Below, piece by piece: positions 46,530 through 57,037 of a stretch of 64,000 bases of DNA (positions within the stretch are counted from its first letter, which is position 1; every line of letters begins with the position of its first letter). The notes below the pieces were generated by a model. That model saw only the letters and a program-made list of their open reading frames with translations, was not told where the DNA came from and made no database searches. The DNA comes from Akkermansiaceae bacterium. GTDB lineage: Bacteria > Verrucomicrobiota > Verrucomicrobiia > Verrucomicrobiales > Akkermansiaceae. The position numbers and the translations under genes are program-made. The DNA is taken from NCBI GenBank assembly GCA_015062055.1, contig SUVK01000008.1, forward strand, positions 1 through 64,000, written 5' to 3'.

Positions 46530-47744
46530 TCAGCGCAGCATATTAAGGGCACGCTCCGTGCAAGAGAGGGCACGGTCCACTTCTTCTACGGTATTGTATA
46601 GAGCAAAGGAGTAACGGGTTGTACCGGTGATACCGAGGTATTGCATGAGAGGCTGACAGCAATGGTGCCCGGTACGCACGGCAATGCCCATTTGGTCCAG
46701 CAGAGTACCGAGGTCGTAGTGATGAACCCCGGGTACAACAACAGAGATGAGCGCCCCGCGATTTTCTTTAGGGCCGAGGATATCTATACCGCCGATGGTT
46801 TGCAAGCCCTCATACATACGACGGGTAAGAGTCTGCTCGTGAGCATCTATAGTGGCAAGACCCTGCTCCATTACATATCTCAGGGCAGCTGCCAGCACGA
46901 TATTGCCACAGATATTGGGAGTACCGGCCTCATATTTGAAAGGCAAATCATTGTAGGTAGTGCCGGTAAAAGAGACCTCTTTAATCATCTCGCCACCACC
47001 TTGCCACGGTGGGAGCTGGGCGAGTAGTGACTCTCTGCCCCACAAGACACCGGTACCGGTAGGTGCATATACCTTATGCCCCGAGAACACATAAAAATCG
47101 CACCCCAAAGCTTGCACATCTACCGCCATGTGGGCGGTGCTTTGTGCGCCGTCCACCAAGACAAGGGTTGACGGATTATTGCGCTTGGCCGCGTCGATAA
47201 TTTGAGAAACAGGGTTAATAACCCCCAAAGCGTTAGAAATGTAGGGAATTGCGACCAATCGTGTACGCGCAGAAAGCATGCGCAGATAGGCCTCCATATC
47301 GAAAGTCAGCTCGGGGGTCAACGGTACGGGTTTAAGCACGGCCCCCGTACGTTGACAAAGCATTTGCCAAGGTACGATGTTGGAGTGATGGGCATCCGTC
47401 GTTACCAAGATTTCATCTCCCTGAGAGAAGAGTGAAGACAAGGCCAACACTTGGGCTACCAAATTAATACCGGCAGTAGTACCGGCCGTAAAGACAACTT
47501 CTTTCTCTGAAGAAGCGTGCAAGAACTGAGCCACGGTGGCACGCGCCTGTTCGTGCTCCTCTGTGGCCATACGGCTGAGGTAATGTGCCCCTCGGTGAAT
47601 GTTGGAGTTTAGTTTTTCGTAATAAGCCTGCTCGCACTCTAAAACCGCTTGGGGTTTCTGGGTGGTGGCGGCATTATCGAGGTATACGAGGGGATTCTTG
47701 CCGATACGGGTGGCAAGGATGGGGAATGAAGAGGGAGAATCCAT
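46530..47744 (-). CDS. sufS: Cysteine desulfurase, SufS type
   Basis: A 404-residue PLP enzyme that takes sulfur from cysteine for Fe-S clusters. PLP-fold start VYLDNAATTQKP, PLP Lys in VFSGHKVYAPTG, and catalytic Cys in VRTGHHCCQPLM, the SufS-type short loop, with a second adjacent Cys where Ala is usual. The ATG at 47744 overlaps the stop of the upstream 467-residue gene (TAATG). No sufBCD neighbours, but a sufT-like gene lies in the window. Confidence 0.93.
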   Translation of the reverse strand: MDSPSSFPILATRIGKNPLVYLDNAATTQKPQAVLECEQAYYEKLNSNIHRGAHYLSRMATEEHEQARATVAQFLHASSEKEVVFTAGTTAGINLVAQVLALSSLFSQGDEILVTTDAHHSNIVPWQMLCQRTGAVLKPVPLTPELTFDMEAYLRMLSARTRLVAIPYISNALGVINPVSQIIDAAKRNNPSTLVLVDGAQSTAHMAVDVQALGCDFYVFSGHKVYAPTGTGVLWGRESLLAQLPPWQGGGEMIKEVSFTGTTYNDLPFKYEAGTPNICGNIVLAAALRYVMEQGLATIDAHEQTLTRRMYEGLQTIGGIDILGPKENRGALISVVVPGVHHYDLGTLLDQMGIAVRTGHHCCQPLMQYLGITGTTRYSFALYNTVEEVDRALSCTERALNMLR

Positions 47745-49147
47745 TATTGTTCGTTTTTTTTGAGGTGCTCTGCCATGCGGTAGGCTTCTTGCGGCACATA
47801 TTCTTTCCAGCATTCATCGTTGGCGTTAATCATTTGCACAATATCACGCGGTGTACGGAAGAGCAGCTTTTGGTTGAAATAAGGCACAGAGATGATGTCG
47901 CCGTTATCAAGTAGGTGTTTGTAGAGGTATTGGTACTTCTCGGGGGCAATGTAGGTACCGGCAGTCACATATTCACCGGTGTGGCGGTTAATCCACGGCG
48001 TGACATAGAAACGCGTTTTACCGACAAAGCACAAGCCCGTGCTGGCGAGAATTCCCCCGGGTATGTCCGCCCATTTATCCTTGAACAGCTCGTTAAGCAA
48101 GCCGATGGAAAGTGCAATGGCTACCGGCTCTTTGGTGTACTGATTAAGCAAGGTTGAGATGCGGTGGAAGTGCGTTATATCCGTCACCATCACCGTTTTA
48201 CCAAGGGCGGCCAAAGCATCTACACGGTCTATAAACTCCAGCAAATCGACTTCTTTGCCACGCAATAGGTTTGAAAGTGAGATTTCGCAAATATCCACCA
48301 CCTTATCGCATTGCTCGGGCGAGAGGCTCTCGGTAAACTTAGCGCGCACGCTGTCCATCATCTCCAAGTGAATGTTGCAGATGGGAGAGAAACTACCACG
48401 CATCAACACAATGGGGCGCTTGTATAAGAAATCCGCAGGTTGAGCTACGGTGCCGTCCGGGCAGAATAGCGTGGCCTCGGCAAGGCCGTTACGCACCAGT
48501 TCCAAAGCCAGCAAGCGGTTATCAAACATATTGAAACCATGGCCCGAGAAGCGCATAAAGTCGACCTCATACATGCTGCGATCCAAATTATCGGCCACAC
48601 TATTGACAAACTCATCCATATGGTCGCGCTTGTAATATAGGGCATGCAAAAGATTAACGCCGAGTATCCCTAAAATGCGCATCTGAATATCGTGGTCGGG
48701 CACCAACAAGCGCACATGCATCACGAAATCACCGGGTTGAGCCTCGGGACGCAGCTGAAAACGCACACCAATCCACGCAGACCAAGGGCCGTTATCTCGG
48801 TAGCCTTTGCATTTTACCGTGTTGCATAATGCGAAGAAACACGTTTCTGCCCCGCGTTTTTCGCCCAAGCGATTAATGAGTTGGGTGTATTCGTAATCCA
48901 TCATCTGCAACAAACGCTCTTGAGAAACATAGCGCCGCACAGGGCCGTACAGCGTATCGCTCACAGTCATATCGTACGCCGAAATTGTCTTGGCTACGGT
49001 TCCTGCGGCCCCCGAAGACCTGAAAAACCAGTTAGCGGTTTCTTGACCGGCACCAATTTCGGCAAAGGTACCGTATATGCGTTTATCCATATTGATACGA
49101 AACGCTTTTTCTTGAGTGGCAGCTAGTGTAAGAGCTTCAGCAGACAT
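47744..49147 (-). CDS. Conserved protein of unknown function coupled to sufS
   Basis: A 467-residue soluble protein without signal or membrane helix. It has a striking N-terminal block RIYGTFAEIGAGQETANWFFRSSGAAGTVAKTISAYDM (about 22-60) and further regions such as FCPDGTVAQPADFLYKRPIVLMRGSFSP that look highly constrained. I recognise it as a conserved family but cannot assign a function. The stop overlaps the sufS start by one base, so the two are translated together. It lies 20 bases downstream of the penicillin-binding protein gene. Confidence 0.8.
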   Translation of the reverse strand: MSAEALTLAATQEKAFRINMDKRIYGTFAEIGAGQETANWFFRSSGAAGTVAKTISAYDMTVSDTLYGPVRRYVSQERLLQMMDYEYTQLINRLGEKRGAETCFFALCNTVKCKGYRDNGPWSAWIGVRFQLRPEAQPGDFVMHVRLLVPDHDIQMRILGILGVNLLHALYYKRDHMDEFVNSVADNLDRSMYEVDFMRFSGHGFNMFDNRLLALELVRNGLAEATLFCPDGTVAQPADFLYKRPIVLMRGSFSPICNIHLEMMDSVRAKFTESLSPEQCDKVVDICEISLSNLLRGKEVDLLEFIDRVDALAALGKTVMVTDITHFHRISTLLNQYTKEPVAIALSIGLLNELFKDKWADIPGGILASTGLCFVGKTRFYVTPWINRHTGEYVTAGTYIAPEKYQYLYKHLLDNGDIISVPYFNQKLLFRTPRDIVQMINANDECWKEYVPQEAYRMAEHLKKNEQ

Positions 49148-49167: not shown

Positions 49168-51783
49168 TTATATTTTAAGTGGCAATACAGGCAGAGAGCG
49201 CATGGGGCGAGGTGGTACCAGAGGTATACTTATCTCTGTCTTTTCGTCTTTCTCTTTATTGTCCAAATGATCAACTTTGAGTTTTTCCTCCTCTACAACC
49301 ATATCTTGCATATGAGCAATGTCTTCTTCCGTTTTATAGCGAGGATTCAAAGTTGTAATGCAACCGTAGGGGTCGTCTCCTATCAGGGCCGGTGCTTTCG
49401 GCAAAATCGGCAAAGCCGGTAAAATGCGAGAGGACGATAAACGCCCGGAGCCGAACTCAATAAAGTCGACCAAGCTGGCATTTCCTTTACCATGCACCGT
49501 GCACGATGAAAGAGAGGTATCGCCTTTGGGAAAATACTCGCGGTAGGTCAGCATATCATAACTGGTGCTGCACCCCCGAATAGTGCTCTTGTAACAATGG
49601 TCCGTCGCCCGCATTCCCGAAGCGCTACAAATATCAACCGCCTCGGTATCGGATGGTGGCAAGATTTCCACACTTGGGTATTTACCACTCTCCGCTGCCT
49701 TAAAGACGGCTCCCATGATAGGGGAGCAGATGTGGGAAGCAAACGCTTCCTGATATATTGCGGAGTGCTCATTAAGGAATCCCACCCACACACCACAGGT
49801 AAATGCTGAATCGTAGGCAAAAAGCGAGGCATCCGCAAAATCATAATTGGTACCGCATTTAGCGGCAACTTTCTCCTTGTAGAAGTCAGGCAAGAAAGAC
49901 TTCACAACAGAAGCAGAACCCGTTTTCATGGAATCTTTTAAGATGGAATGAATACGGAAGGCGGAGCAAGGAGTAGGCCCGGCGATCATTTCGCCATTAA
50001 GATTGTCTTTACGCTCCCATAATATCGTGCCGTTACTATCAGTAATTTTTTTGATAATGAAAGGTGCAACGGGGCGTTTACCGCAATTGGGGAACACGGT
50101 GTAAGCCATCACCATTTGTTTAAGAGACATGGGCTCGGTACCTAAATAAACACGGGGATAATACTGAGGATTAGCCTCGGTACTGTCGGGGTTGCGGGGT
50201 GGCGGGGTGATACCGACTTGAAGCAGCGTATGAATAAAGGGCTTGCAACCCACATTTGGTTTGGAGCTCAGAGCTATACCAAGACGTGCAGCAGAAGCAA
50301 TTTTAGAGTCGGTAAGAGCCTGACGAATTGTAATAGAATCTTGATAGCGGCCCTTAGATGTCTCCATACCCCATTCACCCAAAATACCCTCTGTGCCACC
50401 AATACCGGCCAAGCGGTTATCCAAGGCATCATCTACTAGGCGAGAGCATGGGGAATACCCATTATCAAACGCACACATGTATAAGAAAGGCAATAAGGCC
50501 GTACCGACCGGGCGACGCCCGGACTCAATAAAGTCGTAATTCGCGCGGTCAAAACTACGCCCTGCAACATACACCAGGGTTGCACCTGTCTTATTTTCTA
50601 CAGCAAAGACAGCACCATCCAAGTAATTATGAACCGGTGGTTGACCTGCGGGAATCGGGTCTGTAAATCTCACATGATTATAATCGCTGCGTGACTCAAT
50701 CTCAGAAAGTTTCTTTTCGAGAGACTGCTCTGCCGCAGTTTGCATATCTTTATCGATGGTGGTGTATATTCTGATGCCGGCACTTTTGATAATTTCTTCA
50801 CCACGCACGGGGTCTTTGAAAATGCTGATAGCTTGTTGCTGAATAAGGGCATGCAGGTGAGACGTTTGGCGACGAATAGGCCGAGGATTGAGCACAAGTT
50901 CGGTTTGTTTAAGACGCTCGGCTTCTTCTACGGTAAGATAGTCCAAACGCTGCATGCGATCTATCACGTCGTTACGCCATTTTTTATTCAAGGCATGGTT
51001 GCGTATCGGATTATAATTCTCGGGGTTTTTAATCAAAGCAGCAATACTGGCCGCTTCGCACACCGTTAACTCTGAAGGCTCTTTGCCAAAATACCCTAAC
51101 GATGCGGCACGAATACCATAGTAACCGCAACCGAAATAGATGCGGTTGAGATAAAACTCCATAATCTGGCGTTTGGAGTATTTCTCCTCAATGCGCATAG
51201 CCAAGAAGATCTCGACCATTTTACGCTCGTAACGACTCCCGCCCATGGCTTGAACACGGCGCTCTAAATCGTAGGCATTGCGGGCTAACTGCTGGGTGAT
51301 GGTAGAGGCCCCTTGGTTGGCACTCCCCCCGGCGGCAAGAGCTTCTTTGGCAGCACGTAAAATACCCATGGGGTCATAGCCGTTATGCGTCCAGAAGTTT
51401 TTATCCTCCTGAGCCACAAGAGCATCGATCATACACGGGGCAATCTGGTCGTATGTTACATAACAGCGATTTTCATCAAATATACGCCCTATTTCTTTAC
51501 CGTTGCGATCGTATATGATGCAAGGGTGGTCTAAGTTGTTAATGTCCTCGAGGTTAAACTTCTCGGCCCATTTCTCATATTTTGCGGTAAAAATCTTGAA
51601 CCCGGCATATCCACAAATGGCCGTCACAACTAAAAGAATAGAGCAAATTATTGAGAAACGAATCAAGAACCGTTTCCACCAGCTACCTTTACGCACGGGA
51701 TTAGCCTTGCGGTCATCGCTGTGTTTGCGACGACGCGATTCTGCTGCTTTTCTGCGGTTTTGGTATTCGTCAAGATTGTCCAT
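49168..51783 (-). CDS. Class A penicillin-binding protein with altered transpeptidase motifs
   Basis: An 871-residue membrane protein. One N-terminal membrane helix (about 38-58) is followed by a GT51 glycosyltransferase domain with the catalytic Glu126 in QEDKNFWTHNG and STITQQLARN. The transpeptidase domain is present by alignment but its three motifs are changed: SxxK reads TALL (428-431), SxN reads SKI (493-495), and KTG reads KCG (642-644). It therefore should polymerise glycan strands but not cross-link or bind penicillin normally. The tail is Pro/Lys/Asp-rich. The ATG at 51783 fits the promoter; an upstream in-frame start has no support. Confidence 0.92.
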   Translation of the reverse strand: MDNLDEYQNRRKAAESRRRKHSDDRKANPVRKGSWWKRFLIRFSIICSILLVVTAICGYAGFKIFTAKYEKWAEKFNLEDINNLDHPCIIYDRNGKEIGRIFDENRCYVTYDQIAPCMIDALVAQEDKNFWTHNGYDPMGILRAAKEALAAGGSANQGASTITQQLARNAYDLERRVQAMGGSRYERKMVEIFLAMRIEEKYSKRQIMEFYLNRIYFGCGYYGIRAASLGYFGKEPSELTVCEAASIAALIKNPENYNPIRNHALNKKWRNDVIDRMQRLDYLTVEEAERLKQTELVLNPRPIRRQTSHLHALIQQQAISIFKDPVRGEEIIKSAGIRIYTTIDKDMQTAAEQSLEKKLSEIESRSDYNHVRFTDPIPAGQPPVHNYLDGAVFAVENKTGATLVYVAGRSFDRANYDFIESGRRPVGTALLPFLYMCAFDNGYSPCSRLVDDALDNRLAGIGGTEGILGEWGMETSKGRYQDSITIRQALTDSKIASAARLGIALSSKPNVGCKPFIHTLLQVGITPPPRNPDSTEANPQYYPRVYLGTEPMSLKQMVMAYTVFPNCGKRPVAPFIIKKITDSNGTILWERKDNLNGEMIAGPTPCSAFRIHSILKDSMKTGSASVVKSFLPDFYKEKVAAKCGTNYDFADASLFAYDSAFTCGVWVGFLNEHSAIYQEAFASHICSPIMGAVFKAAESGKYPSVEILPPSDTEAVDICSASGMRATDHCYKSTIRGCSTSYDMLTYREYFPKGDTSLSSCTVHGKGNASLVDFIEFGSGRLSSSRILPALPILPKAPALIGDDPYGCITTLNPRYKTEEDIAHMQDMVVEEEKLKVDHLDNKEKDEKTEISIPLVPPRPMRSLPVLPLKI

Positions 51784-54358: not shown

Positions 54359-57037
54359 TCATTTCGCACCACGAGCCGGGCGCCCGTATACATAGAACCC
54401 TACTACGGTAGACTCCCACTTATCACCATCTCGCAGAAGCCGAACATACCCGGCAGTCAATTTTTCTTTACGGACATCAACCCGCACCATATTACCGGCA
54501 ATGACGGGGACGGCATCTGTCGCTTCCCAGTTTTGGCCATCGGATGAAATTTCAAGCTTGAAATCGCGATCATTTTTAACTTTCTCATTGAAAACACAGA
54601 CCACACCGTTAATTTGGCTGGGGGACTCAAGGACGACTGTCATGCCGGACTTCCCCTCAAACTTGGCCGGTATGCTGCCCCCGTGTTTTTGAAGCACGGC
54701 CCAATGAAGGCAACACTGAGACATCTGATCGGGTGACAACGTGGTCGCGGTACGTATTAAACCTTTAGCTGAGACCACACGGCCGGGGAAAGAGCGGAAT
54801 CTCATCTTCTGTTTTGGGAAATGCTTACGGCACTTACGATAGGCCAATTTGCCGATAGCTTGGTAGGTACCGGTATCGTTATTGGAGGCAGCAGCATAAA
54901 GCGCTTCTCCCAATGCAGCCCACACGGCATCCACATTCTTTTTGTCAGCTTTGGCGCTGCCCATGGCGCGCACAATCAGACCGGTAAATGTTTTATGGAA
55001 TTTTTCAGCATCTTTATCACCCTTGGGTAATTTACCGATATAATCTAAGCCCCAAGTCAACACCGCACCGGCATAATCGGGCTTTTTCATCAGGGTTTTG
55101 AGCGCTTCTTTGAGGTATGCCAATTTTTCTTTATAATTGGTGCAGCCTTCGATCTGAGCGGTCAGCAAGGGGGCAATATCCCAACGGTTTGTACCGAATG
55201 TTGCACATTTTTTGAAGAAAGCCGCATACATTTTGTTACGTTCGTTGCGGTTTTGCACCATGGGCAGCAAATTGGGGTAGACATAGCTGGTGAGGTATGT
55301 TGCAGCAGCATTATGGAATTTAACCGCCATATTGTTAACTACTTTATCGTGCAGCTCTTTCCAGCGTTCTTTATGCTCGGGTGCTTTTTGCTTGAGGTAA
55401 GAGGCGTACGAATGCAAAGCCAACCAGTTGAGCGGTTGAGCTGCAATAGATGCATCATAACACTCGAAAGCGGCTTTCATCATTTTACGAGAAGCCAACA
55501 ACTCTGCTGCTGCCAGCAGTTGGTCCGATACCAATTGATGATAACGGTCCGAATATAAATCTTGAGTCAAAATCAAAAAGTCCCAGTCATGCAAACCGAA
55601 AAATGTTTTATGCATGGAGTGTTGCCAATAGATTGAATAGCTCATCTGCCAATCGTTGCCGACTCGAACGGTATAGGCACAGTGACCGGGCTCGCCCATC
55701 GTCATGGCCGGCACCCCCGCAGCCAACGCAGCATAGGCTCCGTAATGAGAACAGGCGCCGCACACACCACCGATTTCTCGATGAGCCCACGCCGTTGTGT
55801 GGTCTGTATAATCCAGAATGGGTGCTAAATAATCGGCAGAGAACACGGAGTCCCCGGCAACGTTACGCAAACGGTATACAAGTTGATTGCATGCACTTAA
55901 ATAACCTTCGGCCGGAAGCCTCACATTATCACGCTGCCAAGTGAGAGATTTTACACTCCCCCAGCCTTCGGGCTCTTTGCAACCGGTCACAATGCGAGTA
56001 TCCCAATAACCTAACGTGCCGAATACGACATTGAGTTTACCTTCTTCAAAACTCTTGTGGTAATAATTGAACCGAGCGAGCATGTCTTCTTCAGACCACC
56101 CCTCTCGGGCAAACTCCAACGCCGTAGCCGTAGCAATACGGCGTGTATGAGGAGAGGCCATTTGCTCGATATGTTTTTCGTAAATGACGGTCAGATATCG
56201 TAATGCCTTGCCCAGTTTATCTGTGGGGCCGGAGTACAACAAGCCCTGCATCCAGTCTAAATCAGAGGTTAATGCGACCAACATTTGGGCACCCATTTTT
56301 TGCTCCGTCACTTTTTCCATGCCCTCATAACCTACTTTGCGTATGAGTGTAAGGCAGGCCAAATCCAACTGAGTTTCGGGTGACTCCAAGGCGGTCCATC
56401 GAGATTTAGGCTTAGTCAATGCGGGCAGTGTTTTGACCAATAATTCGCGGTAGATAACATCGGGGCGCTTCCATTGTTCTGCCGTATATTTTCTATTCGT
56501 GTACCCTGCTCCATCCTTGCGTTTCTTGTCTGCGCGGGCGTACTTGTCTGCTAAATTATCGGCATGGCGTTTGTAAGCTCGGTTGTGGGCATTGGTGCAG
56601 GCCACGGGAACCACGTTTTGATGAGGAGACACCTTAACATCGGCCTCTCGAATAGTTTTCAGCGTGGCGGGCGGACGCTTCTCAGGCACAAAGGAGTCAG
56701 AATCTCTTGCCACAGTCCAATCTTCTTCTTCGTCATCCGGCAGGCTATCGTCATCATCCTCGTCATCAGAACAAAGGCCATCTTCTTCATCGAGTTCTTC
56801 TGCCGAAACATTTTCGCGATAGGTACCGGTGTGAACCTCAACGGTCGATTTATCATCTTCCTCAATTAAATCTATGCTCGGGTCCACCTCTTGAGTAGGG
56901 GTAGAATCTATAGTGACTTGCGCTACAGATGTTTCGGTGGCCTTGGGCTTTATTAAGTTATAACACGGTCTTAATAAATAACCAAGCAACATGGAGGCAA
57001 AAACGCCGACAAGCAATTTGACAAGATTTTGACTCAT
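54359..57037 (-). CDS. Membrane-anchored transglutaminase-like protein with discoidin-like C-terminus
   Basis: An 892-residue protein. An N-terminal membrane helix (about 6-22) is followed by a very acidic linker (Asp/Glu run, 80-107). The centre has a transglutaminase/papain-type layout: GVCGACSHYGAYAALAAGVPA with Cys426 or Cys429, then GEPGHCAYTVRVGNDW with His452 and Asp462 as the rest of the triad. The last 130 residues (from RTATTLSP) resemble an F5/8-type galactose-binding beta sandwich (FKLEISSDGQNWEA, GYVRLLRDGD). Likely a periplasmic or surface protease, cross-linker or peptidoglycan-peptide enzyme. Middle gene of a three-gene operon. Confidence 0.75.
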   Translation of the reverse strand: MSQNLVKLLVGVFASMLLGYLLRPCYNLIKPKATETSVAQVTIDSTPTQEVDPSIDLIEEDDKSTVEVHTGTYRENVSAEELDEEDGLCSDDEDDDDSLPDDEEEDWTVARDSDSFVPEKRPPATLKTIREADVKVSPHQNVVPVACTNAHNRAYKRHADNLADKYARADKKRKDGAGYTNRKYTAEQWKRPDVIYRELLVKTLPALTKPKSRWTALESPETQLDLACLTLIRKVGYEGMEKVTEQKMGAQMLVALTSDLDWMQGLLYSGPTDKLGKALRYLTVIYEKHIEQMASPHTRRIATATALEFAREGWSEEDMLARFNYYHKSFEEGKLNVVFGTLGYWDTRIVTGCKEPEGWGSVKSLTWQRDNVRLPAEGYLSACNQLVYRLRNVAGDSVFSADYLAPILDYTDHTTAWAHREIGGVCGACSHYGAYAALAAGVPAMTMGEPGHCAYTVRVGNDWQMSYSIYWQHSMHKTFFGLHDWDFLILTQDLYSDRYHQLVSDQLLAAAELLASRKMMKAAFECYDASIAAQPLNWLALHSYASYLKQKAPEHKERWKELHDKVVNNMAVKFHNAAATYLTSYVYPNLLPMVQNRNERNKMYAAFFKKCATFGTNRWDIAPLLTAQIEGCTNYKEKLAYLKEALKTLMKKPDYAGAVLTWGLDYIGKLPKGDKDAEKFHKTFTGLIVRAMGSAKADKKNVDAVWAALGEALYAAASNNDTGTYQAIGKLAYRKCRKHFPKQKMRFRSFPGRVVSAKGLIRTATTLSPDQMSQCCLHWAVLQKHGGSIPAKFEGKSGMTVVLESPSQINGVVCVFNEKVKNDRDFKLEISSDGQNWEATDAVPVIAGNMVRVDVRKEKLTAGYVRLLRDGDKWESTVVGFYVYGRPARGAK

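Follow-up and report, generated by a model that had tools for sequence, protein, structure and literature searches.

The 64,000-nucleotide stretch of DNA analysed here (the window) encodes an 871-aa protein of the class A PBP type whose transpeptidase (TP) domain is predicted to be inactive (49168..51783, (-), ATG at 51783). Class A PBPs are generally regarded as bifunctional. Judging from the sequences, we consider it likely that the window protein is an ancient, conserved pseudo-transpeptidase class A PBP, which would polymerise glycan, with its TP domain acting as a scaffold or regulator and other enzymes making the cross-links. The window comes from an Akkermansia-like MAG, since its nearest named relatives are Akkermansia MAGs.

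Domain architecture and predicted fold

The start codon at 51783 is supported by the MDxLDEYQxRRKAAE N-terminus, which is kept across orthologues. A short basic cytoplasmic tail precedes a hydrophobic stretch predicted to be a single transmembrane helix (approximately residues 38-62; 51598..51672, (-)); this anchor region, read from the sequence and the model, appears as a helix at residues 35-75 in the AlphaFold2 model. The GT51 glycosyltransferase domain follows (residues 95-278; 50950..51501, (-); Pfam match at 3.7e-57), with the ED, GxSTxxQQ and RKxxE motifs of class A PBPs and the catalytic residues Glu126 and Glu191. Both glutamates are present in 119/119 distinct orthologues, in agreement with the claim of an earlier note on this DNA that the GT51 part is intact. 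The C-terminal penicillin-binding/transpeptidase fold of class A PBPs (approximately residues 386-690; 49714..50628, (-)), with its catalytic residues lost, was recognised by Pfam, by alignment to the solved PBP1a 4oon and in the model; the Pfam match is weak, at 22.6 bits against a cut-off of 22.1. A C-terminal extension carries GDDPY (residues 802-806; 49366..49380, (-)), a GxDPY motif conserved in the clade alignment.

The protein scores 357.3 bits against the PBP1A family TIGR02074, below the curated cut-off of 508.75; the canonical Akkermansia PBP1A itself reaches 471.2 bits and also falls short, so this cut-off says little here. Against the monofunctional glycosyltransferase family TIGR02070 the score is 124.2 bits versus a cut-off of 182.65, and a full TP domain is present.

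A TP-only AlphaFold2 model built from 39 sequences (pLDDT 79.5, pTM 0.85) superimposes on PBP1a 4oon with a Z score of 39.3 over 347 aligned residues (rmsd 2.9). This suggests that the TP fold is intact and of full length. The full-length model has a pLDDT of 68, and the relative orientation of the two domains in it is uncertain.

Transpeptidase motifs

Alignment to 4oon sets GTALLPFLY opposite GSSFKPFIY, ALTDSKIA opposite ALYKSRNM and AAKCGT opposite AGKTGT, a register that agrees with the alignments to orthologues and canonical paralogues. It fixes TALL (Thr428-Leu431; 50491..50502, (-)) at the SxxK position, where the earlier note had put it. The SxN position is occupied by SKI (residues 493-495; 50299..50307, (-)) and the KTG position by KCG (residues 642-644; 49852..49860, (-)). 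Among the residues replaced are the nucleophilic Ser (Thr428), the general base Lys (Leu431) and the Asn of SxN (Ile495). At these positions the window protein has none of SxxK, SxN and KTG, the motifs by which a bifunctional D,D-transpeptidase PBP is recognised. The earlier statement that all three motifs are replaced was nevertheless too strong: SxxK is lost, but SKI keeps the Ser of SxN, with the Asn gone, and KCG keeps the Lys and Gly of KTG, with the Thr gone.

Five Ser-x-x-Lys occur elsewhere in the window protein. Across 61 aligned clade members none of the five is conserved, and another Ser-x-x-Lys acting as the nucleophile was rejected on this ground. A sequencing artefact was likewise rejected, as independent assemblies carry TALL or TSLL.

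Orthologues and the probable order of loss

The survey covered 119 distinct orthologues from Verrucomicrobiales and a few other Verrucomicrobiae, many of them close Akkermansia relatives, so that the counts are not independent. The nucleophilic Ser is absent, with Thr instead, in 118/119, and the Lys of SxxK is absent in 113/119, its position being taken by Leu, Phe, Thr, Ile, Val, His, Gln or Ala. The changes at SxxK are thus shared by nearly all orthologues, a check for which the earlier note had asked. The Asn of SxN is retained in 29 and an exact KTG in 73 of the 119; KCG (Thr to Cys) is private to the window protein. Since KCG is private and KTG or the Asn persists in many orthologues, the durable lineage-wide core of the change is the Ser-to-Thr replacement and the loss of Lys, not the loss of all three motifs. 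The exceptions are five orthologues with Thr and Lys and one with Ser and Lys (GSAFKP, L124), and by its motifs the family does not appear to be uniformly dead.

The gene is widespread in the order. All 60 Akkermansiaceae genomes (60/60) match the window protein, a few of them through paralogues only, and 40 loci were obtained by scanning a single genome for each species. With a TP-domain profile, a clear top-scoring orthologue was found in 112/114 Verrucomicrobiales genomes (the 112 read off the score list), and also in a small number of genomes from other parts of the class. The viral contigs searched contained no relative.

A tree of 90 sequences, computed after the motif columns had been masked, groups the Thr-type proteins in a single monophyletic clade (SH-aLRT 99). 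The canonical PBP1A paralogues that were sampled fall outside this clade, and every one of them has SxxK, SRN and KTG intact. Within the clade, TxxK occurs in five members and SxxK in a single one (L124), and Ser unaccompanied by Lys occurs in none. Parsimony requires 4 to 13 changes for the loss of Lys, depending on whether regain is allowed. The simplest order suggested by these states is that Ser was replaced by Thr first, and that Lys was lost later, on at least a few occasions. Both the tree and a divergent methyltransferase neighbour identify L124 as an orthologue, and its Ser and Lys are compatible under parsimony with both an ancestral and a reverted state. Taken across the clade, the loss of catalytic residues appears to be ancient and lineage-wide; the earlier note had recognised neither this nor the clade-specific motif described below.

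Selective constraint on the transpeptidase domain

Simple Nei-Gojobori estimates, made for pairs with unsaturated dS, give the TP domain a dN/dS of about 0.015-0.14, near the value for GT51 (about 0-0.12), the part under the tightest constraint in most pairs. This indicates strong purifying selection on the dead TP domain, which is not decaying. The earlier proposal of a glycan polymerase with a scaffold domain is supported by these data: a scaffold fits because the TP fold is kept in the model and is under purifying selection.

The constraint is unevenly distributed. When the 305 TP-domain columns were ranked by entropy over 61 clade members, Thr428 came 13th, Lys642 33rd and the former SxxK Lys position 215th. 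Thr428 is conserved in 60/61 members, Lys642 in 58/61 and Gly644 in 59/61. Between the SxxK and SxN positions lies a clade-specific motif, DN....GGTEGILGEWGME (residues 455-474; 50362..50421, (-); 61 aligned members), of the form D455-N456...GG.EGxLGEWGxE, in which Gly466, Glu470 and Glu474 are invariant (61/61). The canonical Verrucomicrobial paralogue lacks GG.EGxLGEWGxE and has a gap or other residues at that place. Conservation this high at Thr428 and Lys642 exceeds what a simple scaffold requires, which counts against a role as scaffold only.

It is possible that the TP pocket has been re-purposed, with Thr428, Lys642 and the Glu470/Glu474 loop forming a non-catalytic site that binds stem peptide or a partner and gates GT51. 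We put this forward tentatively. Such a site would account for a loop specific to the clade and for the conservation of Thr428, Lys642 and Gly644 where the SxxK Lys position varies freely; however, the GEWGxE loop (residues 459-478) has low confidence in the TP-only model, which makes its distance to the old active site uncertain, and the conservation could be structural. A re-purposed pocket would refine the pseudo-transpeptidase explanation more than oppose it.

The near-invariance of Thr428 could instead mean that the TP domain has kept its catalytic activity, Thr428 serving as nucleophile and Glu470, Glu474 or Lys494 as an unconventional base; in favour of this too, the five TxxK members have SxN and KTG otherwise intact. 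We regard this as improbable: the window protein lacks the SxxK Lys, the SxN Asn and the KTG Thr all together, and the base position varies among eight residues in the orthologues. We know of no natural D,D-transpeptidase with a Thr nucleophile. It is less probable still that GT51 too is idle and that the protein as a whole serves as a structural or recruitment factor; GT51 activity is predicted from the sequence, but in most pairs no other part is as constrained as this domain, and its catalytic glutamates are universal among the orthologues. A decaying gene or a sequence or assembly artefact, to which the private KCG might point, has next to no probability and was rejected, being contradicted by the full-length ORF, a TP dN/dS far below 1 and the same motif state in orthologues from dozens of independent assemblies.

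Other cell wall enzymes and gene neighbourhood

The genome encodes four GT51 proteins: the window protein, a canonical PBP1A (C61), a PBP1C (C79) and a shorter protein (C12) in which the TP domain is a remnant. It also encodes two class B PBPs, one PBP2-like and one FtsI-like. A search for YkuD gave eleven matches, of which nine carry the catalytic SxGC[IV]R motif. With PBP1A, PBP1C, class B PBPs and YkuD proteins encoded, the genome would have ample cross-linking capacity without the window protein, which supports the earlier suggestion that cross-links are made by other enzymes.

Several further features of the wall gene set were observed. The nine intact-motif YkuD L,D-transpeptidase genes are found in a genome of 2.4 Mb, and searched relatives have 9-18 YkuD matches (L171-L177). 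A single SEDS protein was found (C54:37037-38095) despite the presence of MreB and of the PBP2-like class B PBP. A single SEDS protein was also found in 6/7 other Akkermansia genomes searched; two or three SEDS matches were obtained in each of the other Verrucomicrobiales searched, and the SEDS search returned none for G108. The shorter protein belongs to a second GT51 paralogue (L008:1282-3165, which is C12 in this genome; L151-L154, L166) with a degenerate short TP domain, as in GAAFEP (Lys to Glu), and it adjoins the canonical PBP1A in several Akkermansiaceae genomes.

A conserved operon partner that would explain the function was rejected, as the neighbours are lineage-limited only. Within Akkermansia these are a CstA-like gene, a gene for a 467-aa protein and SufS, and the 467-aa protein also adjoins the gene in some other Akkermansiaceae. 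A divergent Methyltransf_28 gene is present in 23 loci, nearly all outside Akkermansiaceae. Both sets of neighbours support orthology rather than function. The 467-aa protein (47744-49147, (-)) lies directly downstream of the gene and has no Pfam or NCBIfam match, and the sole match for an 892-aa protein (54359-57037, (-)) is a weak one to F5/8 type C, at the C-terminal end. ORFs adjoining the orthologue, in its BLAST cluster, were noted at L133:1200-2582, L136:1588-2511, L145:5463-6788 and L150:5687-7036; a Pfam scan of those in L133, L136 and L145 gave no matches.

Discussion

We infer that the GT51 domain of the window protein is active, that its TP domain is inactive and that other enzymes cross-link the product. 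The membrane-anchored GT51 domain would build glycan strands from lipid II. The TP domain would stay folded and be unable to acylate on Ser with a Lys base; its role would be structural or regulatory, and it may still bind peptide. Cross-links would be made by the canonical PBP1A, PBP1C, the two class B PBPs and L,D-transpeptidases. A pairing of the window protein with L,D-transpeptidases in particular is suggested by their co-occurrence in the genome. From the lost residues the window protein is predicted not to bind beta-lactams. The interpretation is strengthened by the change being ancient, shared and under selection.

A more specific proposal, which we hold with considerable doubt, is that the TP site is a regulatory ligand site, where Thr428, Lys642 and the Glu470/Glu474 loop read the cross-linking of stem peptides and gate polymerisation. 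The setting would be a wall that may rely heavily on L,D-transpeptidases, in Akkermansia that may lack a second SEDS polymerase (RodA).

Retention of a dead TP domain under selection, across a clade that spans an order, would demonstrate a non-catalytic function for the domain. Such a clade would also provide a natural class A PBP limited to GT activity, in which the uncoupling of strand synthesis from cross-linking could be studied. The finding bears on how Akkermansia, a prominent commensal of the gut, builds its wall and responds to beta-lactams. In the open-access full-text library that was searched, we found nothing on the clade or on natural pseudo-transpeptidase class A PBPs; one paper records that Akkermansia retains an aPBP and nothing further (PMC8406291).

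Among known systems, the canonical class A PBP/PBP1A (L003, the paralogue encoded by this genome; solved 4oon, 3udf, 5u2g) shares with the window protein its domain order, GT51 motifs and TP fold. A Cys-containing C-terminal region is also common to the window protein and the Verrucomicrobial canonical PBP1A paralogue, whereas the GxDPY-bearing extension is mostly missing from the latter. The canonical PBP1A keeps SxxK, SRN and KTG, whereas the window protein has lost the Ser, Lys and Asn. The engineered E. coli PBP1b S510A, an experimental precedent for the proposed mechanism, is a class A PBP with a dead TP domain and a working GT51, the combination predicted for the window protein: it polymerises lipid II without TP activity, and its strands are used by the L,D-transpeptidase YcbB (PMC5089857). 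In that protein the state results from a point change, whereas in the window protein it is natural and appears ancient and lineage-wide, and the Lys has been lost as well. The monofunctional glycosyltransferases (MtgA/SgtB, TIGR02070) have the same predicted net activity, glycan polymerisation only, but are without a TP domain, whereas the window protein retains a full and constrained TP fold. The second Akkermansiaceae GT51 paralogue also combines an intact GT51 with a degenerate TP domain; it differs in being shorter (about 580-635 aa), in forming a separate branch of the tree and in standing, in several genomes, in tandem with the canonical PBP1A.
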